Source: Eubacterium coprostanoligenes
Lineage (GTDB): Bacteria > Bacillota > Clostridia > Oscillospirales > Acutalibacteraceae
Length of the DNA: 64,000 nucleotides
NCBI RefSeq assembly: GCF_900167205.1
Contig: NZ_FUWW01000001.1
Span: forward strand, 62,001-126,000
Reading direction: 5' to 3'
Position 1 is the first letter of the stretch. Every line of letters starts with the position of its first letter. Under the pieces are notes generated by a model. That model had not been told where the DNA came from and made no database searches. It was given only the letters and a program-made list of their open reading frames with translations. This document shows positions 23,008-48,770 of this stretch, piece after piece. The position numbers and the translations under genes were made by a program.

Positions 23008-24717
23008 TTATTTCAGAAGCATTTCTTCTCCGTTTTCAAGAGCTTGATAGTATTCATCCGATAATGTCTTATTGAAGAAAACATACAACTTAAGCATCGC
23101 TCTGGACATAGCAACATAATTAAGCATTCTGTCTGATAAACCCGTAAATCCATGTAAATCAATGAAAAGAACGATTTTTGATTCCAAACCTTTAAAAGAC
23201 TGAACGGTATAATAATTAATGCACTTTTTGTCGAATTTATTTATATTACTGTTTTCAATGATTTTGTAATTGCATATTTCGTCAATGTTTGCCAGCAAAG
23301 AGTTTGATTTCTTCAAAGTGGAAATAATAACAATGTCTTTACTTTCTACACCTGATGATATCAGTGACATTATTGTTTTCCTAAGTTCTTTTATAAACTC
23401 CTGCTTGGTTTCATATTTTTTGTTTTCAACTTTTAGTCCGTTAACTTTAAGATATTTCGCAGGCGGAGTATTTGTAAGCAAGGACGTTCTTCTTGCTATT
23501 TGTTCGGTATTTCTGCAATTAATCCTTAAGTTCAGTATAGCGGGTTTGTATGATTCTTTCAGTAATTCAAATGTGGTTTCAAAATCATCGATTTTGCCGA
23601 AAATATTTTGATTGGGGTCAAAAAACATATACCAACTACCGGTAGACAGTCCGTTCTTTACTATATATTCAAGTACGTCAAACACTTCAACACAGAATAA
23701 ATCCTGTCCCTCATCAACGACTACTACATCATATTTTTCCGTTTCATCAAAACACTGTAATGATGATTTATTACATAATTCTTTTACTGAGTAATTATAA
23801 ACTTCTTCATCTTCAAAATACTTTTTCATTAATGTATGAAAAGTTGAAACATTTATATATTCCGATTTTTCTAATGAAGCAGATGCGTATCTCGCCATGT
23901 TCCTGTTAAAGCATAAATATAAAACATTTTTTTCTTTTGCAGCACTCTTTCTTACAAGTTCTAAAGCCAGCAAAGATTTTCCTGTTCCTGCCGTGCCTTG
24001 TATTAGTGCGCGTTCATTTTCCTGAACGGTTTCAATAACATCATATTGTTCATCGGTAAGTTGAAGCATTCTTTCCTCAATGCTTTGCAATTCCAGATGC
24101 ATCGACGGAACTACTCGAAAGTCACCTCTTAACAAATCATTTAACTGTTTTAATTGTTGAATATTTAGTTTTTCAGGAGAAAAATGATGTTTTGTTTTTT
24201 CCTGTTCAGTCCAGTAATCGAAGACGCTATCCAAATATTTTCCAAATTCATAAATATTGTTTTTTCCATCAAAAACAACTTCCGTAACTAAATCATTTCC
24301 TTCTCCCGTAAAAATACATTCCGGGAATATAACAGCATAACCTATCAAATAATTCGCTTGTTTTGAATGCTTTCCGTAAATATCTGACAGGTATTTTTTT
24401 AATGCATATTGGCAACCGAGTGCCTGTTCGAACGGATTGTGTATTTGAAAAGTTTCTCCGTTTCTGTTTTCCGAATACCAAGTTCGATCCTGTCTGTAAA
24501 TGTTTTGTCCGCCTTTCACCTCAATACAGAGTATGCCTCTTTCGCATATGTATAAAAAGTCAATTTCCGAACTTAGTTTATAGCGATGGTTTTTTTGACG
24601 TAAAGAATAGTATACCGTTCCTTTTATTTCGTCTTTTGAAAACCAATCAAAAACCAGACGCTCGCCGTTTCTTCGAGGATCGTCTCTGTCAATACTATTA
24701 GGGAACAATTCTGCCAT
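23008..24717 (-). CDS. NERD nuclease-related domain + UvrD-like helicase (569 aa)
   Basis: The NERD domain (residues ~15-165) shows the PD-(D/E)xK-like signature EIDFLYI (D53) and CIEVKGG (E66, K68). A superfamily-1 helicase follows: Walker A GTAGTGKS (241-248), VVDEGQD (333-339), INCRNTEQIARR and SFKGLESKIV. I choose ATG 24717-24715 because GAGG precedes it; the longer frame overlaps the upstream gene. It is the last gene of the six-gene operon, ten bases after the DrmB-like stop. A nuclease-helicase fits an effector that attacks foreign DNA. Confidence 0.88.
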   Translation of the reverse strand: MAELFPNSIDRDDPRRNGERLVFDWFSKDEIKGTVYYSLRQKNHRYKLSSEIDFLYICERGILCIEVKGGQNIYRQDRTWYSENRNGETFQIHNPFEQALGCQYALKKYLSDIYGKHSKQANYLIGYAVIFPECIFTGEGNDLVTEVVFDGKNNIYEFGKYLDSVFDYWTEQEKTKHHFSPEKLNIQQLKQLNDLLRGDFRVVPSMHLELQSIEERMLQLTDEQYDVIETVQENERALIQGTAGTGKSLLALELVRKSAAKEKNVLYLCFNRNMARYASASLEKSEYINVSTFHTLMKKYFEDEEVYNYSVKELCNKSSLQCFDETEKYDVVVVDEGQDLFCVEVFDVLEYIVKNGLSTGSWYMFFDPNQNIFGKIDDFETTFELLKESYKPAILNLRINCRNTEQIARRTSLLTNTPPAKYLKVNGLKVENKKYETKQEFIKELRKTIMSLISSGVESKDIVIISTLKKSNSLLANIDEICNYKIIENSNINKFDKKCINYYTVQSFKGLESKIVLFIDLHGFTGLSDRMLNYVAMSRAMLKLYVFFNKTLSDEYYQALENGEEMLLK

Positions 24718-24727
24718 ATTATTTACC

Positions 24728-26563
24728 TCATAATAGTTCCTTGAAAAATGATAAATCGGCATTATCGGGTGTTCCGACAACCGAGGCTCGATCTAATAAG
24801 CAGTTTAATGATTCACAACTGGTTTCGGGTAAAAGTGTACAAGCATGACATGCAGCATAGTTTAAGCCCTTAAAACCTTGACTTTTGGAGTCTATACATA
24901 ACGGATCATTGGAACACCAAGAGCTTTCCTGAAGCATATTTAAAATCGTATCTGCAATTCGGTCAGCCTGTCCTTCTCTTACCAGTCCGCCTAAGCTTCC
25001 GTCTGTATCAGTTGCAGATGTGTATATAAGAATACCACACATTTTGTCGTTATCATCTTCGTATGTTGAGTATATTCTTTCTTTAATTGAAGCGGTTGCA
25101 TAACCGCATTGCGCTGTCAATTGTCTGATAATCAAATGTGACAATGTGTGTAACAGTACATATCTCGGAGAGTTGCCGTCATACATGCCTTTACCAATCC
25201 ATTTATCAATATGCTTTTTGGTCATGTTTACATATCTGTTTTTGTTATTTCTCTCCCATTCAGAAACAAGATTTTCATTTAATTCAAAGAAAATACCCTC
25301 TCCGAATAATTCTATTGCCGGAAGCCATGGCAGTGGTTCTTTTGACAATGGTGAAAACTCCCTGTTTGACATGCCGAGGTTTTTCCGTTCTTCTTCGCTT
25401 TCCGGTTTAGTAGGAAGTATTCTTCTGAAGCCCTGAAGAACCATAACTTCTCTAAGCTTTTTTACAAGTTTTATTTTTGAAAAATACTTAGAAATGACAT
25501 CGGGTATTTCAATAGATTCTGTGCGTAGGAATTCGTGGTCAACATCCTCGCTGCAAAATGCAAGGTATTCTTCTTTTCTTAAGTCGTTTTCGGTCAAATC
25601 CTCTTCAACATTTCCGTACCTTGCATATGCAGCTTTTCTATATGCTTCGTAATTAGAACCATAAAACTCCGGATGTTTCGAATACTCTTTTTTTAATCGT
25701 CTTTCCGTTTCTTCTTCATTGTCATCAAAAATATCTTCAAATAATGAATTCTTTTCTGCCAATTTCTTTTGAATTTTTTCGCTCCAGGGAGGTATTGTCA
25801 GAGCGCTTTCATTAACGGAATAATAAATATTGTTGGCGCTTCTTTGCATACCTCTCAAGGTTGCAAAGCATTTGTCGAGATCGTGGTATGTACCATCTTC
25901 GGTTTTCAGCCAAGGCATATTGCCGGAGCAGCTAAGACCTCTTAAAGCATCTTTGTTCATACAACCCGCCATCGTTGTTTCAGCTCCGCAGTTTTCGCAC
26001 TTAATATGTATAGCATCTAAGCCGCCTGTAGTGCCTTTGTATTCCAATAACATCCTGGGATTTTTACAAGTGCCATTTTTGCTGTTTCTGTGACACCACC
26101 AAACATAAGGAAAGTCTTCAATGTGCCCGTTAATACAAGCAGCAACAAATCTCGAAGGGACCAGCTTTTCGTCACAAATATTACATTTTAACGCTGTGTT
26201 ATACTCGGAGTTGTTCCAAGATGAAGACTTGGCAATTTTACTGTATATGTCCAAACGGTGACACTTTGGGCAATAATACCAAAGCGGAAATCTGTATACC
26301 GGAATAGAAAAGGTGTCATTAATGCTTTTATTATCCGATGAAACCTGGTAAAAGAAATCTTTTCCTAATAACAGTTGCAGGTTTCTTTCATAAATCTTGT
26401 TTGCAGAGTATAGATTTGTCCAAGAATCTATGCCGGATACTATAGCCGACATTCTCGGAAAGTCAGCTAATGAACCGCTTCCGAATGTAGTTATAGTCTG
26501 TGAACGTCTTAAATCGCCAACATATTTTTTTTCAAATTTAATATTTCTAATACGTGGGGGCAT
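24728..26563 (-). CDS. drmB: DrmB-like DUF1998 protein (611 aa)
   Basis: Starts with the charged MPPRIRNIKFEKKYVGDLRR and contains zinc-finger-like pairs (YYCPKCHRLD, LKCNICDEK, IKCENCGAE), the CINGHIEDFPY segment and a C-terminal DUF1998 block (LLHTLSHLIIRQL, CGYATASIKERIY, CHACTLLPETSC). This is the profile of DrmB, the non-helicase core partner of DrmA in DISARM. It begins three bases after the DrmA stop. In DISARM, DrmAB forms a DNA-sensing complex. No DrmC phospholipase D gene is nearby. Confidence 0.82.
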   Translation of the reverse strand: MPPRIRNIKFEKKYVGDLRRSQTITTFGSGSLADFPRMSAIVSGIDSWTNLYSANKIYERNLQLLLGKDFFYQVSSDNKSINDTFSIPVYRFPLWYYCPKCHRLDIYSKIAKSSSWNNSEYNTALKCNICDEKLVPSRFVAACINGHIEDFPYVWWCHRNSKNGTCKNPRMLLEYKGTTGGLDAIHIKCENCGAETTMAGCMNKDALRGLSCSGNMPWLKTEDGTYHDLDKCFATLRGMQRSANNIYYSVNESALTIPPWSEKIQKKLAEKNSLFEDIFDDNEEETERRLKKEYSKHPEFYGSNYEAYRKAAYARYGNVEEDLTENDLRKEEYLAFCSEDVDHEFLRTESIEIPDVISKYFSKIKLVKKLREVMVLQGFRRILPTKPESEEERKNLGMSNREFSPLSKEPLPWLPAIELFGEGIFFELNENLVSEWERNNKNRYVNMTKKHIDKWIGKGMYDGNSPRYVLLHTLSHLIIRQLTAQCGYATASIKERIYSTYEDDNDKMCGILIYTSATDTDGSLGGLVREGQADRIADTILNMLQESSWCSNDPLCIDSKSQGFKGLNYAACHACTLLPETSCESLNCLLDRASVVGTPDNADLSFFKELL

Positions 26564-26566
26564 ATA

Positions 26567-29500
26567 TTAATCCTTTCGTTCGTTTGTTGAAACCTTAACA
26601 GATGTCTCAACACTTCTCATAGTATTAAGTATTCTAAAACGACCGTTTTCACAATAATCGGGTTGGAACAGTGCATTATCTTGGCTTTCATATTCGCCTT
26701 TTTTATATTTAAATTTCTCTCTTCTTATGCAACGTTCTTCCCATTCCAATTCTATTTCTTCAATGTCTTGTTTTACATGTTCAAGTTCCGAGGGATCAAC
26801 TCTTTCAACATAATCAAAAATATATTTTTTGATATCGCTTAATTCCGGAATGGTACGCCTGAAATTAACAGCATCTGTATTAGCAGCCAACTCATCTATG
26901 AGATTTCTGCACAGTATTACATACAGAGCCTGCAAAGCTCTGTCTCTAGCTCTGTCTGAAAATGGGGTAACACTTGTAGCTTCAACATATCTGTAAAAAG
27001 TACCGTGATATTGAGTGAAGTCTTCATAATGTGATCTGTCTCGAGATTTTGATTGATTATAGGTTGTAATAACCAATCCGGGCGTTTCACGACCGACACG
27101 GCTGGTTGCCTGAATGTATTCAGACGTTGTCTTAGGTTGTCCGACAACAACCATGGTTCCCAATCGACCTACATCAACACCGACTGAAATCATATTTGAT
27201 GAAAGTAAAAAGTCGTAGGGATGTGTAGAATTATCAGCTTTATACTCAACTGTTAATTCTTTTTGAATTACGGTTCCTATGTTTTCGCTCTTTTCACGAC
27301 TGGTTAACTCTTTATAATAATCATATCTCGATATATCTTTCTTTATAGGATATTTTTCGACAAATTTTGATTTTCTGAGATAGTTAAACCTGTCTTGAAT
27401 ATCGTCTACTACCCTTATTATGGCACCGCCGAGCTCTCTTAAAGTATTGAAATAACCTGTTATTGTCCAAAATGAATCTATGATTCTTTCATCATAATCC
27501 AGCTCTGCCAAATATCGCGATGCAAATAATAAAGACGTTAAAACCCTAATCATCATGGTTGTCGGACTTGTGCCGATACCCATACAGCCAAGGTACATTC
27601 TGGCCGGTCTGTCTTCTCTTTTTGATATTTCCGCAAAGAATGAATCGTTTATATCAATACCTTGCGGAGGAAACTGCGTGTAATCAGATGCATACAATGA
27701 ACTTATTTGTTCTTTTGCGTTCTTTATGGTAGCAGTTGATGCAATTATTTTCGGCACAATATTATTGTGTTCACAAAGCTTTCTGATTGCTGCTTCATAT
27801 AAACCCGTAATTGTACCCAACGGCCCAGATATAAGATGTAATTCATCTTGTATTATTAATTCAGGTGGCCTCTTATTTTTGCTTTTTCCGAAAAGAGATG
27901 ATGTGTTTTCATTTAATGCTACTTGTGCGAACTTATCTATTGTTGCAACAATAAAAGTCGGAGTGTACTCATATATTTCTTCATCAATAAGATAAATAGG
28001 TAACCCGGTATGAAAATCGCAGCTGGGATTATTGCAACAAATTGTCATACGTTTCTTTTCGGTATTACAATGATAGTTGTGTTCGCTAATCGGTTTTCCG
28101 CACCAGGGACATTTTTTAATCTGAACGGGATTGCTGCTTTCTGCTTTTTCGATTTTTTCTCCGTTTAGTATTTTTCGTGCGTCCGTGATGTTGTTCGGTG
28201 TTAATGCCATACCTGCCCAAAGGCCGATGCCTATTTCACCGCCTTTGATTTTTTCTTTTTTTCTTATAACTTCACATGCACAAATTAAAGCAGACGCCCT
28301 TTCAAACTGTTGAAAAGAAAGCAGCCTCAAAGTGTATCTCATGAGAATGGTAACACCGTCACCGTTATCACCGTATTTAAGTCTTCTTAAAAAGATAACA
28401 AATGCTGCAATTCCAAGGTACGCTTCGGTTTTTCCGCCACCTGTAGAAAACCACAACAAATCTACTTTTTTTCTTTCTTCACCGTTCGGGTCGGCAAAGG
28501 ATACGATTTCCTGTAAGAAAAACGCTAACTGAAACGGATACCATTTAATGCTGTCATCTGATTTATATTTATTTGTGTTTAACAGCATTTGCTCTCTCTG
28601 CAAAAACATTGCTTTGTTTGCCAATGCAAACGCCTTAAAAATCAAGTCATCATTTAAGCAATTAATGGATTTATTTAAAACCGCACATGTTTCTCTGCAC
28701 TTCCTTATATTGATTGCAGCAGGATCTTTATGCATATCCTCCAACTCTTTTGCGTTGTTTTCAATGGAATCAATCCACTCACCGTATTTTTCGGTTAGCT
28801 TTTTTAACTCATTAATTACTTCGTTTTTGCTTGATTCTCCCAGTTTTTTCATTTGCAAATAATCGCTTCTAAATCTTGTGGAAGGCATCATTTGAAGCAC
28901 TTCGTAATCAGGCATAAACTCTGTATAGATGCTTTTTATTTCTCCGTCTTCTTCATACCAATTAACTGCGCATCCATGTCCCGAAGCATAATCACCAATC
29001 CTGCTGTACAGCATTTCCAGTTCTTTTACTTCGTTATTGACAGCAATATGTTTATTGCGCCGAACATCCGAAAATGTATTCGGTTCAACAGCCAACACTT
29101 TAATGCTTGGTTGGAAGAAAGAATCTACGCATTCAAGCGCCAAGTCCCTCTCCTTCGGGGAAGTATTTTCGTTAACAAGAGTTACGCTGATTGTTTTTGT
29201 TCCGTCCCTGTAGGTTTTATGAACTACTATTCTTAAAGATAAATTTTCGCATACTGTTTTTTGTTCAATATGTCCTTGTTTATAAGTTGAAACATCAATG
29301 AGAAAATCGTCGGGATTTAATTCGTTTCTTCTCCAAAAAACAGCTTTTTTACGATACTTACCGTCTTCAAATCCCAGTGCTTTTTGAGCATCTTCACGGG
29401 AAATAATACTATATTTAGCTGCATTTATATGTACAATGAATCTATTGATTCCGGCGTTTAAAGAAAAAGATATCCCAAACGAGGAAGGGTTTTTACTATT

Positions 29501-29725
29501 GCTTAATGAAATACCCGCTTCTTCATCCAATTCACCGCAATCTTCCGATGATGAAACAGACACATCGTTAGCAGAACTGTCCTGAGGATACAGTTTACCC
29601 AAAATATAGTAATCCAACGGTCTCTCATCGCAGATTATTTCATCTTTTTTAACCGGACCAAGTAAGTCCTCTTGCATTATTCTTGCAAGTATTTCTCTTG
29701 CTTCGTAATACTTTTCAAATCCCAT
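26567..29725 (-). CDS. drmA: DrmA-like superfamily-2 helicase (1052 aa)
   Basis: ATG 29725-29723 is taken as start. Helicase motifs: I STGGGKTEA (427-435), II QDELH (~626-630), III STATI (~664-668), and VI QATSRVGR (872-879). Between motifs I and II lies a four-Cys zinc ribbon (CPWCGK...CCNNPSC, ~539-569). Length and the ~400-residue N-terminal region before motif I fit DrmA. It precedes drmB as in DISARM. Upstream, however, are a UvrD-like helicase, Hsp70 and a coiled-coil gene instead of drmD/drmM/drmC. Confidence 0.85.
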   Translation of the reverse strand: MGFEKYYEAREILARIMQEDLLGPVKKDEIICDERPLDYYILGKLYPQDSSANDVSVSSSEDCGELDEEAGISLSNSKNPSSFGISFSLNAGINRFIVHINAAKYSIISREDAQKALGFEDGKYRKKAVFWRRNELNPDDFLIDVSTYKQGHIEQKTVCENLSLRIVVHKTYRDGTKTISVTLVNENTSPKERDLALECVDSFFQPSIKVLAVEPNTFSDVRRNKHIAVNNEVKELEMLYSRIGDYASGHGCAVNWYEEDGEIKSIYTEFMPDYEVLQMMPSTRFRSDYLQMKKLGESSKNEVINELKKLTEKYGEWIDSIENNAKELEDMHKDPAAINIRKCRETCAVLNKSINCLNDDLIFKAFALANKAMFLQREQMLLNTNKYKSDDSIKWYPFQLAFFLQEIVSFADPNGEERKKVDLLWFSTGGGKTEAYLGIAAFVIFLRRLKYGDNGDGVTILMRYTLRLLSFQQFERASALICACEVIRKKEKIKGGEIGIGLWAGMALTPNNITDARKILNGEKIEKAESSNPVQIKKCPWCGKPISEHNYHCNTEKKRMTICCNNPSCDFHTGLPIYLIDEEIYEYTPTFIVATIDKFAQVALNENTSSLFGKSKNKRPPELIIQDELHLISGPLGTITGLYEAAIRKLCEHNNIVPKIIASTATIKNAKEQISSLYASDYTQFPPQGIDINDSFFAEISKREDRPARMYLGCMGIGTSPTTMMIRVLTSLLFASRYLAELDYDERIIDSFWTITGYFNTLRELGGAIIRVVDDIQDRFNYLRKSKFVEKYPIKKDISRYDYYKELTSREKSENIGTVIQKELTVEYKADNSTHPYDFLLSSNMISVGVDVGRLGTMVVVGQPKTTSEYIQATSRVGRETPGLVITTYNQSKSRDRSHYEDFTQYHGTFYRYVEATSVTPFSDRARDRALQALYVILCRNLIDELAANTDAVNFRRTIPELSDIKKYIFDYVERVDPSELEHVKQDIEEIELEWEERCIRREKFKYKKGEYESQDNALFQPDYCENGRFRILNTMRSVETSVKVSTNERKD

Positions 29726-29746
29726 GTTTTTCACCAATTAATTCTA

Positions 29747-32272
29747 TTAATAAACATCATATTCCATGTGACCCAGTCCGATAATATCAATCCACTTCCA
29801 TACCCCGTTCGGCGCAACTGATGTTATATCCGGATGAGTTTCAAGGTATTTTGAATCAACAATTTGAGAATATACTCCCGAAACGTACAGATTGTTCACG
29901 GATACAGGTAACTCCACTGCTTTTGATAACGTCATTGGGTTTAACTTCATAATTCTGATAATGTCCTTTACGAACATAGAATCCGAACCGATTTTTCCGA
30001 TAATGCTTTCGGTTTTTTCCGCAACAACATTATAATAAAATGTATTTTGACCGATTTTTCGTTCAAGTCTGATTGCGTCACCAGCTTTAATGTTTGCCAT
30101 TTCTTGATTGTTAAAAAAGGCAAATTGGTCAATATTTACATCTTCTTTTCCTAAAAACTCAAGGTATTTTAATTCAAAATTCTTAATAAATCCCCAACGT
30201 TCATTATTGAGTCCATACCATTCTTTTTTGATTTTGTTGATTTTGATATGTCTCATTGTTTTTACGGACTTTAACAATCTCTTTGCACGCGTAACGGCAA
30301 CATAAAATACTTTGTATTCATCTTTATTGACATCATTTTTATATAGCTCATCAGCGAATGATTTATCAATAATAACTGTATCGTATTCTCGACCTTTTGC
30401 CCTGTGAATATTTGAAACGATTTTAGATTCTTTTGAAATTGAACGGAATATTACATCATCAAATTTTGACGTTGCAATACGACCAAGTAAATCCCGAACG
30501 TCAAACGAGTTGCTTTCGGTTTTATAATAATATTGAATTCTTTTCCAAATAATTGGTGCCGAATAATCAGCGTTGCTGTTAATAAGTAGATTTTCAAATC
30601 TGTTATAATCGATAAGCGAATTTGAATAATCTGCAAAAACATCGGCAATCCAGGGTGCATAGTTTTTATCAAATTTTTTACTCAAGTTAAGAGTATGCTC
30701 AACTCCTCTTTTTCGAAAATCAGATGATAAAAGCAAGGTTTGTCCGTTGTTTCTTAAAAGAATTGCACCCTCGTTTTCAAAACGATTATACAAAGACTTT
30801 TCGCTGACCTCTTCAATACTATCCATAATTGAAAGAACGGCGTTTTTCATATCTGCAATATTGTCTTTTAGAATGGCGTTTCTCAAAACAACGGTTTTTG
30901 AAATAAGGTCGTTTGTCTGCCTGTGGTTCTCGGTAAAGAATATGTATCTGGCATTGTTGCCGAACTGGTTACATACTGCTTTGTAAAACTCGATTGAACG
31001 CATAGAAGACTCGTTATCGCATTGATAGTCATATATAGCCTGGCATGCGTCACCGAAAACAGTAACGCCGCAATTGTTATTCAAGCATGCATGAATAATC
31101 TTTAACACAAATCTTGCCAATGTATTGGTTAAGTCCTGTACCTCATCAACAATAAAATGTTCCCACCAATTAAAAACATCTTTTGAATGTGTGGAAATGA
31201 TATGAGAAGCTTTGTTTAATGATTCGTCATAATTGTTCAGTGATGACAACGGAATATTTGCCCATCCCATTTCATTAGCTTGGTTTATTAACCACCAAGC
31301 AAAAGAATGAAATGTTCTTACATCAACATTCATTAAACCCCTATCAGCACCGTCTTTGACAAACTGATAAAGCCGTTTCTTTATTACATCAACAGCAGCG
31401 TTTGTAAAACATAATACCATTATTCCCTCGGGATCGACCTCAAGTTCATTAACCATGTAATTTATCTTATGGATTAATGTGTATGTTTTTCCAGTTCCCG
31501 GACCTGCATCAACAAATGTGTACTCTTTCTTACCGCCTGTAATTACTTCGTCCTGTGTACCGCAAGCAAAGAGTTCAAAAATATTATCATTTACCTGATA
31601 GGTCAGGTCTTTGGGAGGATTATCGGTGATGACATTGTCATGAAATTCATCTGCCAAAGTTTCGATTGTATCGTCTTTAACATTTCTTTTCGAAATTCTT
31701 CTGAGAATCTTTAAAACATCAAACCTGTCTTTGTTGGCTGCAGATATCTCTTTTTCTTCCGTTAAAGGCAAATCTTTTGCTTCCGTTAACGGTAACTCCT
31801 TTTTTTCTGTTAACGATAACTCTTTTTCGTTTTCATATGTGTCCTCATATTTAAAGGATTCTCCCGTCGCCAAAGGAAAAAGTGTATACTCTGCTTTGCA
31901 GGCTGAGTATCCGTAATCATCAACATAGCTTGTTATCGGAGCAAATCTTTCTATTTCACCCTCCGTTAACGGATTTGAAGCTCTGCATTTTGTAAAATTT
32001 GAGCATTCGGTTTTTGTGCAACGACACACCCATTCATAAGCGTCAGCTTTTCTTTTAATACCCCAACACGGCTCGAATTTATTAAGCGCACAAAAAGGTG
32101 TTTCCGAATTAATCTTTTTTTGATATTCATTAAAATAGTTGTCTGTATGGTGCTTATTGTACAGAGAATGCAATTTATAGAAATCAACTATTTGATTGAA
32201 AAACCTTTTGTCTGAAGTTAAATCCCCTTCAAAAGGGAAAACATTACTTCTGAAAACTATGTTTGAACTCAT
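29747..32272 (-). CDS. UvrD-like superfamily-1 helicase with N-terminal Cys cluster (841 aa)
   Basis: Residues 61-96 hold six cysteines (C61, C69, C83, C85, C90, C96) that could bind zinc or an Fe-S cluster. Residues ~149-176 are four imperfect eight-residue repeats of the type KELPLTEE. The helicase core follows: GPGTGKT (257-263), VDEVQD (375-380), ENHRQTNDL, and the C-terminal IHRAKGREYDTVII and VAVTRAKR motifs. The start overlaps the Hsp70 stop by four bases. UvrD-type motors unwind DNA from a 3' tail. Its strict linkage to Hsp70 and DrmA suggests a common complex. Confidence 0.85.
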   Translation of the reverse strand: MSSNIVFRSNVFPFEGDLTSDKRFFNQIVDFYKLHSLYNKHHTDNYFNEYQKKINSETPFCALNKFEPCWGIKRKADAYEWVCRCTKTECSNFTKCRASNPLTEGEIERFAPITSYVDDYGYSACKAEYTLFPLATGESFKYEDTYENEKELSLTEKKELPLTEAKDLPLTEEKEISAANKDRFDVLKILRRISKRNVKDDTIETLADEFHDNVITDNPPKDLTYQVNDNIFELFACGTQDEVITGGKKEYTFVDAGPGTGKTYTLIHKINYMVNELEVDPEGIMVLCFTNAAVDVIKKRLYQFVKDGADRGLMNVDVRTFHSFAWWLINQANEMGWANIPLSSLNNYDESLNKASHIISTHSKDVFNWWEHFIVDEVQDLTNTLARFVLKIIHACLNNNCGVTVFGDACQAIYDYQCDNESSMRSIEFYKAVCNQFGNNARYIFFTENHRQTNDLISKTVVLRNAILKDNIADMKNAVLSIMDSIEEVSEKSLYNRFENEGAILLRNNGQTLLLSSDFRKRGVEHTLNLSKKFDKNYAPWIADVFADYSNSLIDYNRFENLLINSNADYSAPIIWKRIQYYYKTESNSFDVRDLLGRIATSKFDDVIFRSISKESKIVSNIHRAKGREYDTVIIDKSFADELYKNDVNKDEYKVFYVAVTRAKRLLKSVKTMRHIKINKIKKEWYGLNNERWGFIKNFELKYLEFLGKEDVNIDQFAFFNNQEMANIKAGDAIRLERKIGQNTFYYNVVAEKTESIIGKIGSDSMFVKDIIRIMKLNPMTLSKAVELPVSVNNLYVSGVYSQIVDSKYLETHPDITSVAPNGVWKWIDIIGLGHMEYDVY

Positions 32273-33717
32273 TCTTCGGTATCCTCAACTTGAAATGCTA
32301 CTTTTAAATTTTCATATTTCCAATTAACTGCTCTTGTTTCGGAAATACGATTGCTTCCTATTTTTGTCTTAAACACATTGTTGTTATCAACATAACATTG
32401 CAGTGTGAGATATTCGTCGGCCATATTATATATCGGTACAAATACATTTTCGTATAATTCCCGTGACTCGGGTTCCTCGGAATCCGTGAACACAAAACAT
32501 GCATCGCTGTTGTCAATCGTGCCGAAATTAATCTTTAATTCTTCGCAAGGAATCCTTTGTCCTTTTTTTATCAACGGGAAGTATGTGCCATCGCTTAATT
32601 GTAATCCGACAGACTTGCTGAGAGTATATCCGCCGTTTCTTGTGGATGTAATGGAAGCTCCCTCTGCAATGTTCCACATTACTCTGTTAGGATAGTATAC
32701 TGTGTCTTCTCCATATTCCTGTTCTAATCGCTCCTGTAATAATCGAAGTTTGCTTGAACCGCCAACACACAGAATCTTATCTATATTCTCCTTGTTAAGT
32801 CCGGACTTTTTAATAACATTTTCCAAACAAGACATAGCTTTATTTATAAAAGGTTCTATTAATAATGAAAAATAGTCGTATTCGATTGCTTCGCGGACCG
32901 AACCATAGCGGTCGTATTTGTTTATTGTGATAACGACAACATCTTCATCTTCAAAATCGCATTTCGCTTTTTCGCATTTTGAAATCAATTGGTCCTTCGT
33001 TACAGCGTCTAATTGTTCGAACGGTACCGATATTTCCTTTTTACGCATAAAAATAGCATGCATTCTTTCGGCAAGGGTAATATCTATACTGTTTCCGGCT
33101 TCGTTAATTCCATCTGCGGATAATTCGGATACGTTTCCGTTATCTACTCTCAGAGCAACAACATCGAGCGTTCCTCCGCCCCAATCAAATACAACTATGT
33201 TTTTACAACTGCGAAGCTCATTATAATTACTGCAAAACGCAGCTGTCGGCTCGCTGATAAACATTTTTATATCAATTCCTGCTTTTGACGCAGCTTTTCT
33301 GAGCGCAGATTTTTTGCTTGCAGTATAACCAATCGGAACTGCGACCACAGCTTCATCAAGAGAATTGTTTCTTGAAAGTGCTTTGGCTTTTAACGCTTTT
33401 AGTATTTCTGCCGCAATGTCTTCGGGAGTCCAGATTTTTCCGGCAATCGTCCAGGTTTTATCTGTTCCCAAATATGTTTTTATTGATGATATATATTCGT
33501 GTGTCTCAAGTAAACTATTTCTTCTATCTTTAGCCTCTCTGCCTGTAATTACCGCACCGGTTTCTTTATCAATTGCAACTACAGACGGAAACGGTCTTCC
33601 TTCATCATCTCCGTAATACAGAGTTTCAAGGTTTGACTCATTTATTCCAGTTAAAGATACCGCCGCACTGTTTGTTGTGCCGAAATCTATTCCAAACCAA
33701 TTATATCTATCGTTCAT
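32269..33717 (-). CDS. Hsp70-family ATPase without C-terminal lid (482 aa)
   Basis: Nucleotide-binding domain motifs are complete: phosphate 1 FGIDFGTTNS (8-17), connect 1 VPIGYTASKK (127-136), EPTAA (156-160), phosphate 2 DWGGGTLDV (178-186) and CVGGSSKL (~320-328). After ~375 comes only a short beta-type substrate domain; the helical lid and EEVD-like tail of DnaK are missing. It overlaps its neighbours by one base upstream and four downstream. It is not the housekeeping DnaK (no grpE/dnaJ neighbours, divergent sequence), so it is likely specialised for this operon. Confidence 0.88.
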   Translation of the reverse strand: MNDRYNWFGIDFGTTNSAAVSLTGINESNLETLYYGDDEGRPFPSVVAIDKETGAVITGREAKDRRNSLLETHEYISSIKTYLGTDKTWTIAGKIWTPEDIAAEILKALKAKALSRNNSLDEAVVAVPIGYTASKKSALRKAASKAGIDIKMFISEPTAAFCSNYNELRSCKNIVVFDWGGGTLDVVALRVDNGNVSELSADGINEAGNSIDITLAERMHAIFMRKKEISVPFEQLDAVTKDQLISKCEKAKCDFEDEDVVVITINKYDRYGSVREAIEYDYFSLLIEPFINKAMSCLENVIKKSGLNKENIDKILCVGGSSKLRLLQERLEQEYGEDTVYYPNRVMWNIAEGASITSTRNGGYTLSKSVGLQLSDGTYFPLIKKGQRIPCEELKINFGTIDNSDACFVFTDSEEPESRELYENVFVPIYNMADEYLTLQCYVDNNNVFKTKIGSNRISETRAVNWKYENLKVAFQVEDTEE

Positions 33718-35075
33718 TATTTTCTGCCCTCTACATCAATTCCCGATTTCGCTAAAATTTTAAAGATGGAACGAATCTGATATCGCAGATTTTCGCCCAA
33801 ATCAATAGTCATTTCCATTTCTTCGGCATCCAGAAAATCCGTGTATTCGGATTTAAGTTTAGAAGCAATTGCATTTAGTTGTTCTTCTTGAGATGATTGC
33901 TTATCGCTTGAATAAACGGAAACGACAGAATTCATTTTTTTTATTTCGTTTTGCAGCTTTTCGATTAATTCTTCGTCTTTCGAAACAGTCTGCTTTAATT
34001 CTTGAACTTCTAACCTACACGCTTCAAGTCTGGAGTTCAAATTGCTAACAGTACTTTTTTCGGCTTTTAATTGACGGTTTAAGTTATCAGCGTTCTTTAT
34101 TGCTTCAATAAGTTCTGTTGTTTTTTCTTCAATTATTCTTTTTTTAGCCTCGTTCTTTTCATTAAGTACGTTGACCTTATCCACGGTTACGGATATCTTT
34201 TTTACAATTGCAGAAAAAAAGTTTTCGATTGCCGTTATATCAGAAGGTTTCAAACCGTTTGACTTTTTTGTTTTTGAATCTGATTTCGTGCTTTTGCCCT
34301 TTTTTGACAGTTTTGTTAAAAGTTTAATTATTGACGAAAAGTCTTCAAATATTTCCTCAACATCTTCCGGTACAAAGGAAACATCGCATGATGTAATTTC
34401 TCTTATAACGGGAGCGGTGTCTTTCTTTTCTTTCTTTGATGCCTTTTTAACAATTACGCCCATATCTTTTCCACCGTCAAGCCAGCATTTCAGTGTAAGG
34501 ATGGATTCGGGAGAAACGGACGAAGACGGCTTAATTTCTGCGAGTACATTGCTCATAACTTTTATAAAAGCATTCAATAACGTCTTTTTGATTTCAACAG
34601 TATTAATATTAAGCAAGAATGAATCGCTTTTAACATCGGACAATAAGTATTTAGACAACACCTTTTTTGCATCGCCGAAAGTCTGTCCCTTCTTGTTTTT
34701 GGCCTTTACGGGAGTATCTTTTATGATTTCGGTAAGCAGTAACGGGTTTTCGTTATACTTTTTAACGGCGTCAAGCAACAAAGCCACATCAAACTTAAAA
34801 GCGATGTTGCGTTCGTTATTTTTCATCATATCACTGTTGTAGAATGACTTGATTTTGTTGTTCTGCTCTTCGGCGCTGCCTTTAAATAAATATTCAGCTA
34901 ACGGTGCGGCACCGCAAAATGGAAATCCTTCAATCAGGTATTTTTGAGTTTGTTTTGTTAAACCGCAATCCGAAAGCATTGCCGTTATTTCATGGTAATA
35001 CAACTCTTTTTTTTGCTTTGACGCGTCGGACTTTTTATTGATAGCTATTAATTCATCTAAAACACTTAAATCCAT
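33717..35075 (-). CDS. Coiled-coil protein, first gene of the Drm/Hsp70 operon (452 aa)
   Basis: An N-terminal helical half (contains CGLTKQTQKYLIEGFPFCG) is followed by a Lys/Ser-rich linker (~255-275), a long coiled coil (~295-385, many heptads of L/E/K) and a compact C-terminal piece (EEMEMTIDLGENLRYQIRSI). A long coil followed by a small domain directly upstream of an Hsp70 recalls the build of GrpE-type nucleotide-exchange factors, but I see no GrpE signature. It may be the sensor or co-chaperone of the system. Confidence 0.65.
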   Translation of the reverse strand: MDLSVLDELIAINKKSDASKQKKELYYHEITAMLSDCGLTKQTQKYLIEGFPFCGAAPLAEYLFKGSAEEQNNKIKSFYNSDMMKNNERNIAFKFDVALLLDAVKKYNENPLLLTEIIKDTPVKAKNKKGQTFGDAKKVLSKYLLSDVKSDSFLLNINTVEIKKTLLNAFIKVMSNVLAEIKPSSSVSPESILTLKCWLDGGKDMGVIVKKASKKEKKDTAPVIREITSCDVSFVPEDVEEIFEDFSSIIKLLTKLSKKGKSTKSDSKTKKSNGLKPSDITAIENFFSAIVKKISVTVDKVNVLNEKNEAKKRIIEEKTTELIEAIKNADNLNRQLKAEKSTVSNLNSRLEACRLEVQELKQTVSKDEELIEKLQNEIKKMNSVVSVYSSDKQSSQEEQLNAIASKLKSEYTDFLDAEEMEMTIDLGENLRYQIRSIFKILAKSGIDVEGRK

Positions 35076-35279: not shown

Positions 35280-35696
35280 ATGGATAACCACACACCCGAG
35301 CAGCGGCGAAAAAATATGAAAGCTGTAAAAAATAAAGGTTCAAAAATTGAGACTATGCTGCAAAAGGAACTATGGCGCAGAGGCCTCCGTTACAGAAAAA
35401 ACGCAAAGCAGGTTTACGGTACGCCGGATATAGTTTTTATTGGTAAAAAAGTTGCGGTTTTTTGTGATAGCGAGTTCTTTCACGGTTACGACTGGGAAAA
35501 CAAACAAAACGAAATCAAATCAAACAGAGATTTTTGGATTCCGAAAATCGAAAGAAATATGCAGCGCGATTCTGAAGTTAATGAAAAACTTCAAACCGAG
35601 GGATGGACAGTGCTTCGATTTTGGGGAAATGATATAAAAAACGATTTGACAAATTGTGCAGATATAATTGAAAGAGTGGTAAGAAACAATGCCTAA
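35280..35696 (+). CDS. vsr: Very-short-patch repair endonuclease (138 aa)
   Basis: Typical Vsr start (TPEQRRKNMKAVKNKGSKIE) with later PDIVFIGKKVAVF and FFHGYDWE, then FWIPKIERN and LRFWGNDI. Vsr nicks next to the T of a T:G mismatch produced by deamination of 5-methylcytosine. The residue usually written DGCFWHG is SEFFHG here, keeping the His. It overlaps the methyltransferase by eight bases, so repair and methylation are made together. Confidence 0.9.
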   Translation: MDNHTPEQRRKNMKAVKNKGSKIETMLQKELWRRGLRYRKNAKQVYGTPDIVFIGKKVAVFCDSEFFHGYDWENKQNEIKSNRDFWIPKIERNMQRDSEVNEKLQTEGWTVLRFWGNDIKNDLTNCADIIERVVRNNA

Positions 35697-36699
35697 ATAC
35701 AAATCAATAGATTTATTTGCGGGAATCGGTGGAATTCGGTTGGGATTTGACAGAGCTTTCGGCAAGAACATTGAAACCGTTTTTGTAAGTGAATGGGACG
35801 AAAAATGTCAGGAAACTTACAAAGCGAATTTTAAAGATGATTTTGAAATTGCCGGAGATATTACTGTCTTTGATGAAAAACTTATACCCAAATTTGACAT
35901 TTGTCTTGCCGGCTTTCCATGTCAGGCTTTCAGTATTGCCGGCAAAAAACAAGGTTTTGATGATGATTATAAAGGCACCTGTAGGGGCACTCTCTTTTTG
36001 GATGTTGCAAGAATATGTGACTATCACAAACCGAAAGTTATTTTCTGTGAGAATGTTAAAGGACTTTACATACATGACAGAAAAAGAACATTTAAGATTA
36101 TTTGTAAAACCTTTGAAGACTTGGGATATAAGGTGTTTCATAAAATACTCAACAGTAAAGATTTCGGCGTTCCTCAAAACAGAGAGCGAGTATATATTGT
36201 AGCATTCAGAAATGATATCGCTCCGGTAAAATTTGATTTTCCCGAACCTACGGACAGTACCAAACAACTTTGGGATATCAGAGAAGAAGAACCTGTCCCT
36301 GCGAAGTATTATTTGAGCAATACATATATGGACACGCTTGTTGCACACAAGAAACGCCATGCAGCAAAAGGAAACGGTTTCGGATTTGAAATAAGAGACT
36401 GGAGCGAAACCGCAGGTGCAATTGTTTGCGGCGGAATGGGAAGAGAAAGGAACCTTGTGATCGATAACAGACAAAAAAATCTTGTTCCCACAACTAATAT
36501 CAAGGGGGAAATTAATCCGTTTGGTATCAGGAAAATGACTCCCCGCGAATGGGCTCGTCTTCAAGGGTATCCGGATAGTTTCATACTTCCTCTTGCAGAT
36601 ACTCATTTATACAAGCAACTTGGCAACAGTGTTACGGTTAATGTTATAGAAGCAATAGCCAAGAACATAAGGATGGTTTTAGATGGTAGAATCAATTAA
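35689..36699 (+). CDS. C5-cytosine DNA methyltransferase, M.HpaII-like (336 aa)
   Basis: Motif I DLFAGIGGIRLGF (8-20), catalytic motif IV GFPCQAFS with C78, motif VI CENVKGL, motif VIII QNRERVYIV and motif X GNSVTVNVIEAI. The variable region (HKKRHAAKGNGFGFEIRDW, GGMGRERNLVIDNR; shown in part) resembles M.HpaII, suggesting CCGG as target. Methylation would protect host DNA from the adjacent nuclease. Confidence 0.92.
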   Translation: MPKYKSIDLFAGIGGIRLGFDRAFGKNIETVFVSEWDEKCQETYKANFKDDFEIAGDITVFDEKLIPKFDICLAGFPCQAFSIAGKKQGFDDDYKGTCRGTLFLDVARICDYHKPKVIFCENVKGLYIHDRKRTFKIICKTFEDLGYKVFHKILNSKDFGVPQNRERVYIVAFRNDIAPVKFDFPEPTDSTKQLWDIREEEPVPAKYYLSNTYMDTLVAHKKRHAAKGNGFGFEIRDWSETAGAIVCGGMGRERNLVIDNRQKNLVPTTNIKGEINPFGIRKMTPREWARLQGYPDSFILPLADTHLYKQLGNSVTVNVIEAIAKNIRMVLDGRIN

Positions 36700-37834
36700 A
36701 GGCAAAAAGCTGAACAAAGGTGAATGGGCAGAGTTTTATGTAATGCTTAAACTCCTCGGCGAAGGAAGATTATATACTGCCGATAAGCTGCTTCAAAAGA
36801 ATTATAAGAGCTATTTGGACGTCTTAAAAGTAATAAGACAGGAAATGACTTCTCATGTTCTTGAATACATAATTGATGAAGATAAAAGCGCTGTAATTAT
36901 CAAGCCGCAGGAAAAGGAAGAGATTTGGGCAACTATATCCACTGATGAATTCAGCGAAAATGCTAAGAATTTGTTTGATGGAATTAAAGACTTAAAAGGC
37001 AATTCCGTTCCTGCTCCCGACAGCGTTTGCGAATTTGCCAAAATCATTTATGTAAGCAAACCGAAGGCTCCGGCTGTTAAGGCATTGAAGAAAGAGTTCG
37101 GTGGCAAGAATGATATTTTTATCGAAGTAAGAGACGGCCAAACCTCTATAGTATCAGTAATGGGTTTCTCAATAAAATCCAAGTTCGGACACAACCCTAC
37201 TCTTTTTAACGCAGGTTCATCGTCACAGTTTTTGTATAAACTTTCAAACTGTAACGATGAAATAATGGATGAGTTTAATGCAATAACCGTTAACGGTGGC
37301 AGAGGATGGTCAAAGTGCAAAGAATACTTGACCGATAATAACATTTCATTACAGTTTACATCAACACAGAATCCTGTTTACAACGATAACTTATTTTTGA
37401 TAAGAGAGCCTATGAGTAAGATAATGGCTTGGTGCGTTAAGGATAGGCTTATAGATTCGCCCGGAAACTATGAGGTTATGGAAACCGTTGAACGAATGAC
37501 CGACGCAAATCCGTTAAATGTTCCGAATCCGCAAATATATTATGAAAAAGCTATTAAGGACTTTCTTATGGCGGGTTTTACAGGCATGACAGCAGGAAAG
37601 CCATGGGATGGAAAAGAGCAGGTTAACGGCGGTTATATTTCCGTTATGGACGACGGCGATGTGCTTTGTTATCATTCAAACGACAGAGAAGCGTTCAGAG
37701 ATTATTTGTATCGCAACACACATTTTGAATATGTCAGCGCCGATAAGTATGTTTGGAGCAGAATAATAAAGATTGATAATGATTATTATTTGCCGCTGAA
37801 TGTATCCGTTAGGTTTAACACACATATCAGATAA
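36683..37834 (+). CDS. HpaII-family restriction endonuclease (383 aa)
   Basis: The N-terminus (KGKKLNKGEWAEFYVMLKLL, then GEGRLYTADKLL) is characteristic of the HpaII restriction-enzyme family; further segments are SIKSKFGHNPTLFNAGSSS and NGGRGWSK. It is expected to cleave unmethylated CCGG. Start and upstream stop overlap by 17 bases. The family call rests on N-terminal resemblance; the cleavage site is inferred. Confidence 0.75.
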   Translation: MVESIKGKKLNKGEWAEFYVMLKLLGEGRLYTADKLLQKNYKSYLDVLKVIRQEMTSHVLEYIIDEDKSAVIIKPQEKEEIWATISTDEFSENAKNLFDGIKDLKGNSVPAPDSVCEFAKIIYVSKPKAPAVKALKKEFGGKNDIFIEVRDGQTSIVSVMGFSIKSKFGHNPTLFNAGSSSQFLYKLSNCNDEIMDEFNAITVNGGRGWSKCKEYLTDNNISLQFTSTQNPVYNDNLFLIREPMSKIMAWCVKDRLIDSPGNYEVMETVERMTDANPLNVPNPQIYYEKAIKDFLMAGFTGMTAGKPWDGKEQVNGGYISVMDDGDVLCYHSNDREAFRDYLYRNTHFEYVSADKYVWSRIIKIDNDYYLPLNVSVRFNTHIR

Positions 37835-37835
37835 T

Positions 37836-38765
37836 ATGAAAGTAGGTAGCTTATTCTCAGGAATCGGCGGAATTGATTTGGGATTTATTCAGGCAGGTCA
37901 CGAAATTGCTTGGGCAAATGAAATTGATGACGCTGCAGTAAAAACATATAAAAATAATTTTCCCGAAACGGAAATTATTCATGACGATGTAAGAAACATA
38001 AAGTTTGATAAACTTAATAGCGTCGATTTGATTGCGGCGGGTTTTCCCTGTCAATCATTTTCAATAATGGGATACCAACGAGGATTTCATGATTCCAGAG
38101 GCAATTTGTTTTTTGAAATTACAAGAGCCATTGATATCATAAGACCTCGTTATGTCTTTTTAGAAAATGTTAAAAATCTGATGTATCATGATAACGGAAA
38201 AACCTTTCTCGTTATTTATAATTCTCTTGTTCAATTCGGATACTTCGTAAAGTACAAAGTTATTGACGCAAAAGATGTTAATATACCCCAAAATAGAGCG
38301 AGAATCTTTATTGTTGCATTCAGAGATTATGCAGATTGCCTGAATTTTGAATTTCCGGAAGCTGTTGCGCTTGAAAAAACGGTTGATGATATCATAGACC
38401 GTTCCGTGAAACAAGAAGAAATATACTATTATAAGGAAGATAACAGGCATTATGACGAGTTGAATCGTAAAGTTACAAGTAACGGTATTTATAGAATTGA
38501 TGACAATGGTATTGCCACTCGTAAATGGGAAATTTGTCCGACGTTAAAAGCGAATATGGGCACCTATCCCGACCGTGTGCCTATTGTCAGAGATGATTTT
38601 GGAATAAGAAAACTTACATTAAGAGAATGCTTGGATTTTCAAGGCTTTCCTGAAAGTTTTTTGTTTGAAGATGTACCGATGGATAAAGCATACAAACAAA
38701 CAGGAAATACTGTTTGTGTGCCCGTAATTAAAAGAATGGCAGAAAAATTAAACAATTCGTTGTGA
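37836..38765 (+). CDS. Second C5-cytosine DNA methyltransferase (309 aa)
   Basis: I use ATG 37836, one base after the upstream stop, because MKVGSLFSGIGGIDLGF is the normal motif I start. Catalytic GFPCQSFS has C72; motifs ENVKNLMYHD, IPQNRARIFIV and GNTVCVPVIKRM follow. The target-recognition region differs from the first methyltransferase and is short (CPTLKANMGTYPD). It might be the modification partner of the Drm operon (DrmMII role) or an additional protection enzyme for the HpaII-type nuclease. Confidence 0.9.
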   Translation: MKVGSLFSGIGGIDLGFIQAGHEIAWANEIDDAAVKTYKNNFPETEIIHDDVRNIKFDKLNSVDLIAAGFPCQSFSIMGYQRGFHDSRGNLFFEITRAIDIIRPRYVFLENVKNLMYHDNGKTFLVIYNSLVQFGYFVKYKVIDAKDVNIPQNRARIFIVAFRDYADCLNFEFPEAVALEKTVDDIIDRSVKQEEIYYYKEDNRHYDELNRKVTSNGIYRIDDNGIATRKWEICPTLKANMGTYPDRVPIVRDDFGIRKLTLRECLDFQGFPESFLFEDVPMDKAYKQTGNTVCVPVIKRMAEKLNNSL

Positions 38766-46476: not shown

Positions 46477-46547
46477 GAGATGTAATTAATATTGTAAAAG
46501 AAAAGAAACTATGATATAATATTTTACAATAATTGCGAGGTGATATT

Positions 46548-47609
46548 ATGGCAGGCAATGTTGACATGAATAAAGCCAAAAGTGCAAAAAATGATGAGTT
46601 TTACACTTTGTATTCCGATATACAAAAAGAGATCAACGCTTATATAGAATACAATCCAGATGTGTTTAGAGATAAGGTTATTTTATTACCTTGCGATGAC
46701 CCTGATTGGAGTAATTTTACAAAGTTTTTTGCGCAGAATTTTGAAAACTTTGGCATCAAAAAATTAATTAGTACAAGTTATGCACTTGATTCAAAGTACA
46801 ACAATGTGCCATTGCAATTATCTTTGTTTGAAACGCAATCACCTAAATTCGATGAAACAAAAACAAATTCTCACGGCAAGATTTTTACATTAACAAGAGA
46901 TACAAATAATTCTGGCAGAATAGACATTGATGATTTAGAGTGGGAATATTTAGAGGGAAATGGCGATTTTAGAAGTAAAGAAGTTAAGGCACTTCGTGAT
47001 GAGGCTGATATTATTATAACAAATCCACCATTTTCATTGTTTAAGGAATTTTTGAGTTGGGTATCAGAAAAGAATTTTTTGATTATTGGAAATATTAATT
47101 GTATTTCTTATCAAGAAGTTTTTTCAATGATAAAAGAAAACAAGGCTTGGCTTGGCAATGGTATGGGAAGATGGATTTCTGGATTTATTGTACCAGAAGA
47201 TTATGAACTTTATGGAACAGAAGCACGAATTGATGAAAATGGTAATCGTATTGTTGCAACAAATAATTGTTTATGGTTGACAAATCTTGATCACGGAAGA
47301 AGACATCAACCATTACAATTAATGTCAATGGCTGATAATATAAAGTTTAGTAGTCACAAACAAGTTCGTAATAAAGAGTATAAAAAATATGATAATTACG
47401 ATGCGATAGATGTGCCATTTACGGATGCAATACCAAATGATTTTGATGGTAAAATGGGTGTACCAATTACTTTTTTAGATAAATTTAATCCAGATCAATT
47501 TGAGATTATAGGAATTATGGCAACAACAAAAGTTGCAGGTTATAATTTTGGATATCCATATATTGATGGTAAAAAAATCTACGCAAGAATTATTATTAGG
47601 AGAAAATAA
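46548..47609 (+). CDS. EcoRI-type adenine-specific DNA methyltransferase (353 aa)
   Basis: I use ATG 46548, six bases after GAGGTG. The EcoRI-methylase family pattern is clear: KNDEFYTLYSDI near the start, PCDDPDWSNFTKFF, motif IV NPPF (159-162) and GNGMGRWISGF. M.EcoRI modifies GAATTC, but the specificity here is unknown. The stop TAA is followed immediately by the ATG of the DUF262-HNH gene. Confidence 0.85.
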   Translation: MAGNVDMNKAKSAKNDEFYTLYSDIQKEINAYIEYNPDVFRDKVILLPCDDPDWSNFTKFFAQNFENFGIKKLISTSYALDSKYNNVPLQLSLFETQSPKFDETKTNSHGKIFTLTRDTNNSGRIDIDDLEWEYLEGNGDFRSKEVKALRDEADIIITNPPFSLFKEFLSWVSEKNFLIIGNINCISYQEVFSMIKENKAWLGNGMGRWISGFIVPEDYELYGTEARIDENGNRIVATNNCLWLTNLDHGRRHQPLQLMSMADNIKFSSHKQVRNKEYKKYDNYDAIDVPFTDAIPNDFDGKMGVPITFLDKFNPDQFEIIGIMATTKVAGYNFGYPYIDGKKIYARIIIRRK

Positions 47610-48770
47610 ATGAAAACTACACTAAGAACGGACTTGACCATTAGAGATATTTGTAATGGCTTTGTTTATAATGAATATGAGGGCAAAGGTTTGTTTGGTT
47701 GGTCTGGTAAATTAACCATTCAACCTGAATATCAAAGAAATTATATATATAACGATGGCAAAAAGGATGTTGCTGTTATTGATTCCTTGATGAATGAATA
47801 TCCAATAGGTTTGTTATATTTCGTTAAAGTTGCCGAAGATAAATATGAAGTACTTGATGGTCAACAAAGAATTACAAGCATAGGAAGATATGTAACCAAC
47901 AAGTTTGCTGTAAAAGATAAAAATGGAATGGAACAAAACTTTGGTGGATTGGATTTGAGTATTCAAAAAAAGTTTTTAGATATTCCTTTAACAATATACA
48001 TTTGCGAGGGTGAAGAACAAGAAATAAAAGAGTGGTTTAAGACAATTAACATTGCAGGTGTACCACTTAACGAACAGGAATTATTAAATGCAATATATTC
48101 AGGACAATTTGTTACAAAGGCAAAAGAAGTGTTTAGTAACAGCCAAAATGCAAACATCCAAAAGTGGAGTGCGTATATAAAAGGAAATGTTGTTAGACAA
48201 GATTATTTGCGTACAGCGCTTGATTGGGTTAGCAAGGGCAATATAGATGCGTACATGAGTCAACACAGATATGATGACAATATAAATGAGTTAAAGACAT
48301 ATTTTGACACAGTAATTGATTGGATTAATACTGTTTTTACAGATGTTATAAAAGAAATGTGTGGGCTTGAATGGGGAAGATTATACGAAACATATCACAA
48401 CAATCCTTATAATCCAGAAGAAGTGTCCAAAAAATTACACGAACTATATGATGATGAATTTGTTGATAATAAAGGTATTTGTGAATATATACTTGGTGGA
48501 TGTGTTGACACCAAATTATTGAATGTTCGTGTATTTGATGAACATACAAAAAAGGTTGTTTATAACGAGCAAACAAAAGAGGCAACACAAAAAGGTATAT
48601 CAAATTGTCCTTATTGTGCGATTGGAAATGGCGCAGAAAAAACAAAAATCTGGGATTTGAAAGATATGGATGCAGACCACATAACTGCGTGGAGTAAAGG
48701 TGGCGCAACAGATATATCAAATTGCCAGATGTTATGCAAAACACATAATAGAGCCAAAGGCAACAGATAA
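47610..48770 (+). CDS. DUF262-HNH endonuclease, GmrSD/SspE-like architecture (386 aa)
   Basis: The N-terminal DUF262 (ParB-like NTPase) carries [11 protein letters not shown] and the signature DGQQR (83-87), then [12 protein letters not shown]. The C-terminal HNH has [16 protein letters not shown] and [17 protein letters not shown]262-HNH proteins act as nucleotide-dependent, modification-sensing nucleases. Zero-base spacing to the methyltransferase implies co-translation, so this pair looks like a restriction system in which the nuclease is gated by adenine methylation. Confidence 0.85.

Follow-up and report, generated by a model that had tools for sequence, protein, structure and literature searches.

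Hsp70-like proteins are known from the CoCoNuT restriction systems. Units of an Hsp70-like nucleotide-binding domain (NBD) and substrate-binding domain (SBD) recur with coiled coils in type III CoCoNuTs, and RNA binding has been proposed because the Walker A-like motifs of CnuD are degenerate (PMC11090510). In the papers we searched, RNA binding is the sole role proposed for Hsp70s in defense loci. In DISARM, a trigger loop autoinhibits DrmAB, and DNA with 5′ overhangs activates it (PMC9142583); a survey of YprA helicases covering DISARM and its kin contains no occurrence of Hsp70 (PMC12458937). Here we describe an operon in a 64,000-nucleotide stretch of Eubacterium coprostanoligenes DNA (contig NZ_FUWW01000001.1, positions 62,001 to 126,000; hereafter the window) in which a coiled-coil protein (CC), a lidless Hsp70 and a UvrD-like helicase precede the DISARM genes DrmA and DrmB. 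The evidence is strong that the operon is a DISARM variant with this conserved triad. We propose, with the chances about evenly balanced, that CC, Hsp70 and UvrD form an ATP-gated sensor or licensing module of a DISARM-like system. No description of the triad system appeared in the open-licence papers we searched, and absence there is no proof of novelty.

A DISARM core behind three added genes

Six intact, closely packed genes lie on the minus strand in the order CC, Hsp70, UvrD-like, DrmA, DrmB and NERD-UvrD. The genes for CC (452 aa, 33717..35075; from the open reading frame (ORF) list and an AlphaFold2 (AF2) model) and Hsp70 (482 aa, 32269..33717; from Pfam HSP70, alignment and an AF2 model) occupy the exact coordinates and strand given in an initial annotation made from the sequence alone. 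As that annotation stated, the two genes meet in a common stop/start region: in the sequence TAATG (33715..33719), the Hsp70 start and the CC stop have one base in common. Coupling to a helicase gene, also claimed there, is supported by an ATGA (32269..32272) in which the start of the UvrD-like SF1 helicase (841 aa, 29747..32272; ORF and domain scans), the third triad gene, overlaps the Hsp70 stop.

Two DISARM proteins follow. DrmA, a 1056-aa SF2 helicase (26567..29737), scores 974.7 bits against NCBIfam DISARM_DrmAS (cut-off 950), and DrmB, a 611-aa DUF1998/MZB protein encoded by an ORF of its own (24728..26563), scores 484.3 bits against DrmB_fam (cut-off 240). Both exceed curated NCBIfam cut-offs, which makes this a genuine DISARM core and supports the defense setting that the annotation had read into this region. 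The last gene (590 aa, 23008..24780; domain scans) fuses a NERD nuclease to a UvrD-like helicase and is also present in two related loci, L053 and L069. Its listed start overlaps DrmB, and a start near 24717 is likelier. Promoter and terminator scans did no better than shuffled sequences.

Compared with class 1 and class 2 DISARM, the locus shares DrmA and DrmB and differs in other genes. Classical DISARM uses the phospholipase D-like (PLD) nuclease DrmC. Among the subset of window proteins scanned, we found no DrmC and no match to the class markers DrmD and DrmE; the NERD-UvrD protein is there instead and is the likely effector in DrmC's place. Its CC, Hsp70, UvrD and NERD genes do not belong to the classical DISARM set. 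The neighboring C5 methylases of the window appear to be members of an HpaII restriction-modification cluster rather than DrmMII, with a top score to a type II methyltransferase (380.7 bits) above that to DrmMII (261.8 bits). A DrmMII-type C5 methylase does lie upstream in two relatives (L048, 4.9e-156; L069, 4.6e-160) and ties the system to DISARM class 2. The related ARMADA, BRIGADE, TALON and Druantia systems also have a YprA-like helicase core, and TALON likewise uses a NERD nuclease, but none is described with an Hsp70 (PMC12458937); in the window, as in DISARM, each of DrmA and DrmB has a gene to itself.

Nucleotide site and lost chaperone features of the Hsp70

The window Hsp70 is readily assigned (Pfam HSP70, E=6e-38; match to DnaK in the PDB, 8e-31). 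It comprises an NBD (approximately residues 1-355), a 13-residue linker and an SBD-beta-like part (approximately residues 368-456), without a lid. Its family spans eight loci: the window, G271, G332, G379, L053 (from IMG/VR), G376, G463 and G408. The Hsp70s of this family are 29-45% identical and score 321-990 bits, versus approximately 160 for ordinary DnaK.

We aligned the window protein and its seven relatives with two DnaK references, that of the genome itself and that of E. coli, the residue numbers of the latter having been checked. In E. coli numbering, D8, T11, K70, E171, D194, T199 and D201 are kept in all eight Hsp70s. A candidate replacement of the catalytic lysine by tryptophan (GREAW) was rejected, as K70 lies further on, in SIKTYLG. 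The nucleotide site is thus complete. In DnaK, R167 and N170 are contacts for J-proteins; across the family, R167 is changed to M, S, N or A and N170 to S. A linker shortened to 13 residues and lacking VLLLD takes the place of DnaK's VLLLDVTPL, the peptide-pocket residue V436 becomes C, R, N or H, and every protein ends past the SBD-beta-like part, at 476-493 residues, so that the helical lid is lost. In the AF2 model (four sequences, pLDDT 65), the NBD is good, the beta part is poorly defined and a lid is absent. Because the predicted SBD is of low confidence, the absence of the lid rests on the alignment. The structures nearest to the model include DnaK, lid-deleted DnaK and entries of the ribosome-associated complex (RAC)/Ssz1 (5mb9_B, 7x3k_B). 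The initial annotation of a lidless Hsp70 with every nucleotide-binding motif therefore holds.

A complete ATPase site on an Hsp70 fold, next to large, multidomain proteins, might also suit a dedicated folding chaperone that folds or assembles DrmA, DrmB and the helicases and senses nothing. We consider this unlikely. The operon encodes no J-protein and no GrpE; the genome has an ordinary DnaJ-DnaK-GrpE cluster elsewhere. The triad is, moreover, also found without DrmAB. In 8/8 family members, the protein has neither a lid nor the DnaK linker, and its J-protein contacts and pocket valine are lost, so that a folding role appears unlikely. The regulatory role favored by the annotation gains support from the same losses, and the Hsp70 is likely to act as an ATP-driven switch rather than a folding machine.

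A functional parallel may be Ssz1-Zuotin of RAC, where a lid-poor Hsp70 is likewise tied to a dedicated partner; the comparison is one of functional style. The partner of Ssz1 is a J-protein, whereas CC gave no J-domain match and the J-contact residues are lost from the window Hsp70.

The likeness to CnuD raises a further reading, in which Hsp70-CC would bind RNA or ribosomes and trigger on aberrant or phage translation. It draws on the shared build, an Hsp70-like NBD/SBD protein and coiled-coil proteins within a restriction system, for which RNA binding was proposed in type III CoCoNuTs (PMC11090510). We rate it as very unlikely here. The Walker A-like motifs of CnuD are degenerate (PMC11090510), whereas the ATPase site is intact in all eight Hsp70s of this family. 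By description, CnuD pairs with McrBC-type GTPases; the partners here are DNA enzymes, DrmAB and UvrD, and neither McrB/McrC nor a HEPN or cold-shock partner occurs in the window operon. In particular, the CoCoNuT marker, an McrB-like NxD GTPase with a CnuC/McrC partner, is missing from the operon. With a complete ATPase site, every tested folding-chaperone feature lost and DNA enzymes as partners, an Hsp70 acting as trigger of an immune complex becomes testable.

The coiled-coil partner, its viral tails and the UvrD-like protein

CC diverges fast, with 15-26% identity to the window protein across the family, and its gene always lies directly before that of Hsp70. It travels with Hsp70 in the relatives, consistent with the dedicated coiled-coil partner proposed initially. 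In the AF2 model, of low confidence (pLDDT 55, pTM 0.28), a helical N-terminal domain and a disordered linker precede a long helix of approximately 140 residues (277-417); a short C-terminal helix spans residues 425-443. The annotation had likened this build to a nucleotide-exchange factor of the GrpE type, and that part of its claim is not supported. Pfam gave no GrpE match in CC up to E=1, BLAST found no similarity to the genome's own GrpE, and we rejected the analogy on this basis. The C-terminal part is modeled as a helical hairpin and not as a GrpE beta domain, at the same low confidence.

The C-terminal domain of CC (residues 391-452; 33720..33905, minus strand) carries the motif EYxDFxxAxxMxMxxDLGENLRxQxxxIFxILxKxGI and is homologous to viral proteins of approximately 67 residues. 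A scan of the CC alignment against 2.9 million viral contigs yielded the full operon in L053 and two such free-standing small proteins, at L054:1190-1396 (plus strand, E 2.6e-20) and L055:448-652 (plus strand, E 5.4e-15). The E-values come from a tail HMM built from defense CC tails only, with viral proteins excluded and Z = 1,000,000; with this HMM, the viral tails outscore the CC tails of G376, G408 and G463. By eye, the L055 contig encodes RecA, a primase, a replicative helicase, a helicase loader and a ribonucleotide reductase, as in phage. No hallmark genes were seen on L054, a 13-kb fragment. Two DNA-pattern scans gave no further copies of the free tail. The domain was absent from INPHARED (weak, chance-level matches only), PLSDB plasmids, PHROGs and Pfam, and from elsewhere in 300 genomes of the same bacterial family. 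A genome-collection scan with a three-sequence CC alignment returned only the known G271 contig, its patterns being too narrow.

The stand-alone tails point to an interaction surface and to a possible anti-defense strategy. A viral tail may be a decoy that competes with CC; equally possibly, it is a borrowed domain with an unrelated use.

The window UvrD-like protein has the motor motifs GPGTGKT, DEVQD, GDACQ, IHRAKG and VAVTR. It also carries a putative metal-binding motif, CxCx4CxxFxxC (31985..32026, minus strand), that is kept in 7/7 aligned homologues, motorless ones included. In G463 and G408, motifs I-III, or the first RecA domain, are lost, and the CxCx4CxxFxxC motif and the C-terminal domain are retained. 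The helicase motor of the triad thus appears dispensable in some settings, judging from these two homologues. Constant as a unit and with a motor that can be dispensed with, the triad is best understood as an adaptor module.

Distribution of the triad and a possible mechanism

Divergent genomes repeat the gene order CC-Hsp70-UvrD, more than chance would give, and the seven divergent relatives show that these three genes are the constant unit of the loci. Among the 300 same-family genomes, one other has this Hsp70 family (G271, 990 bits versus approximately 160 for DnaK); among 299 genomes drawn phylum-wide, six do, the window's own counted. Hsp70 matches on plasmids were set aside, the three regions examined holding ordinary DnaK.

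G271, G332, G379 and L053 carry CC-Hsp70-UvrD-DrmA and, on contigs that extend far enough, continue with DrmB and NERD. Two relatives depart from this pattern. In G463 (L070 485-18562), CC, Hsp70 and the motorless UvrD precede a DrmC-like PLD protein (4.3e-8), then an ORF that on visual inspection resembles AddB, a UvrD helicase, a BrxP/DndC-like gene, SspB, SspC and a cysteine-desulfurase-like gene. The G463 locus is a hybrid that combines the triad and a DNA phosphorothioation (Ssp-type) module. SspABCD and BREX-type phosphorothioation modules share SspB, SspC and BrxP/DndC-like genes with G463; these genes are not in the window, and SspE and SspFGH were not seen in G463. The papers searched do not describe the triad with Ssp, and a survey of phosphorothioation loci makes no mention of chaperones or UvrD (PMC10853773). 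In G408, the triad is followed by an unrelated convergent gene with no effector downstream, and upstream lies beyond the contig. The G376 contig stops within the UvrD gene. Whether these Hsp70s occur mostly outside Drm loci, the refutation that the annotation itself had named, has a mixed answer: five of the eight, the window included, sit in Drm loci, two do not, and one is undecidable at its contig end. As two of eight lie outside, the CC-Hsp70 pair is a module of its own and not solely a DISARM subunit.

These two loci also fit a passenger, that is, a triad that is an independent defense or regulatory unit, co-transcribed with DrmAB-NERD and functionally uncoupled from it: the triad stands beside Ssp-type genes in G463, has no effector downstream in G408, and has lost its motor in both. 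Against this stands the retention of CC-Hsp70-UvrD-DrmA order, with overlaps or tiny gaps, in five loci from distant genomes, and all three loci with visible 3′ ends go on to DrmB and NERD. We regard the passenger explanation as quite unlikely.

In the licensing reading that we prefer, DrmA-DrmB would be the DNA-engaging core, with the NERD nuclease-helicase standing in for the DrmC nuclease and the triad for DrmD/DrmE. Hsp70 would hydrolyze ATP as a two-state switch without lid, J-protein sites, DnaK linker or hydrophobic pocket. CC would be its obligate partner, using the coil to dimerize and the C-terminal hairpin to dock, and the UvrD-like protein would be the adaptor that passes the switch to DNA and effector. 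At rest, the module would keep the parts of the helicase-nuclease complex separated or the complex inactive. A cue derived from phage would then shift the nucleotide state of Hsp70 and release CC or UvrD, which would license DrmAB and NERD to attack unmodified DNA. We put about even weight for and against this account of how the triad works.

Several points weigh against it. Both AF2 models are shallow (four sequences and pLDDT 65 for Hsp70; three and 55 for CC), and the SBD alignment, on which the V436 and linker statements depend, is weak. The family has eight known members, several in draft or metagenome-assembled genome (MAG) contigs, and the G332 and G271 loci end after DrmA. That the operon is a DISARM-like anti-phage system is read from its gene content. 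Finally, classical DrmA already carries an autoinhibitory loop of its own (PMC9142583), so that DISARM does not strictly require a further module for licensing.

Effectors are exchanged while the triad stays constant, which suggests that the regulator is portable. A broader claim, that the triad is a transferable ATP-switch sensor module for varied DNA-restriction effectors and that some phages carry a CC-tail decoy to jam the switch, strikes us as rather unlikely when taken as a whole. With the conserved unit, its varied defense neighbors and the free viral tail copies, the idea of an ATP switch in bacterial immunity can be tested directly.

Other genes flank the triad in some loci. G332 and G379 (L048, L069) have, besides DrmMII, an upstream protein of 1016-1040 aa that gave no Pfam or PADLOC match where tested. 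It lies directly before CC (L048:5679-8801, L069:12605-15655, L068:3884-6505), is 873 aa plus a fragment in L068, and is absent from the window operon. In G271 (L008:9192-10723) and the IMG/VR contig (L053:8268-9799), an AbiEi/AbiEii toxin-antitoxin pair is directly upstream of CC. Two proteobacterial-looking loci (L051:7822-11920, L083:2130-6211) hold tandem genes for a zinc-finger protein, a coiled-coil protein and an Hsp70. McrB/McrC-like genes lie nearby in L051, and an apparent PIWI-domain fragment does so in L083. Their coiled-coil tails do not match the CC tail HMM; the loci look analogous, and we do not claim tail homology.

The window operon itself lies in a dense defense island (13662-48770). 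Its neighbors include a divergent HpaII-type restriction-modification cluster of Vsr, two C5 methylases and the HpaII endonuclease (35280-38765), type II/IIG-like methylases with a specificity subunit, a HipA-like protein (15762), a Schlafen-AlbA protein (18807), an AbiEi-like protein (40389), Shedu SduA (44177) and an EcoRI-type methylase with a GmrSD/HNH nuclease (46533-48770).

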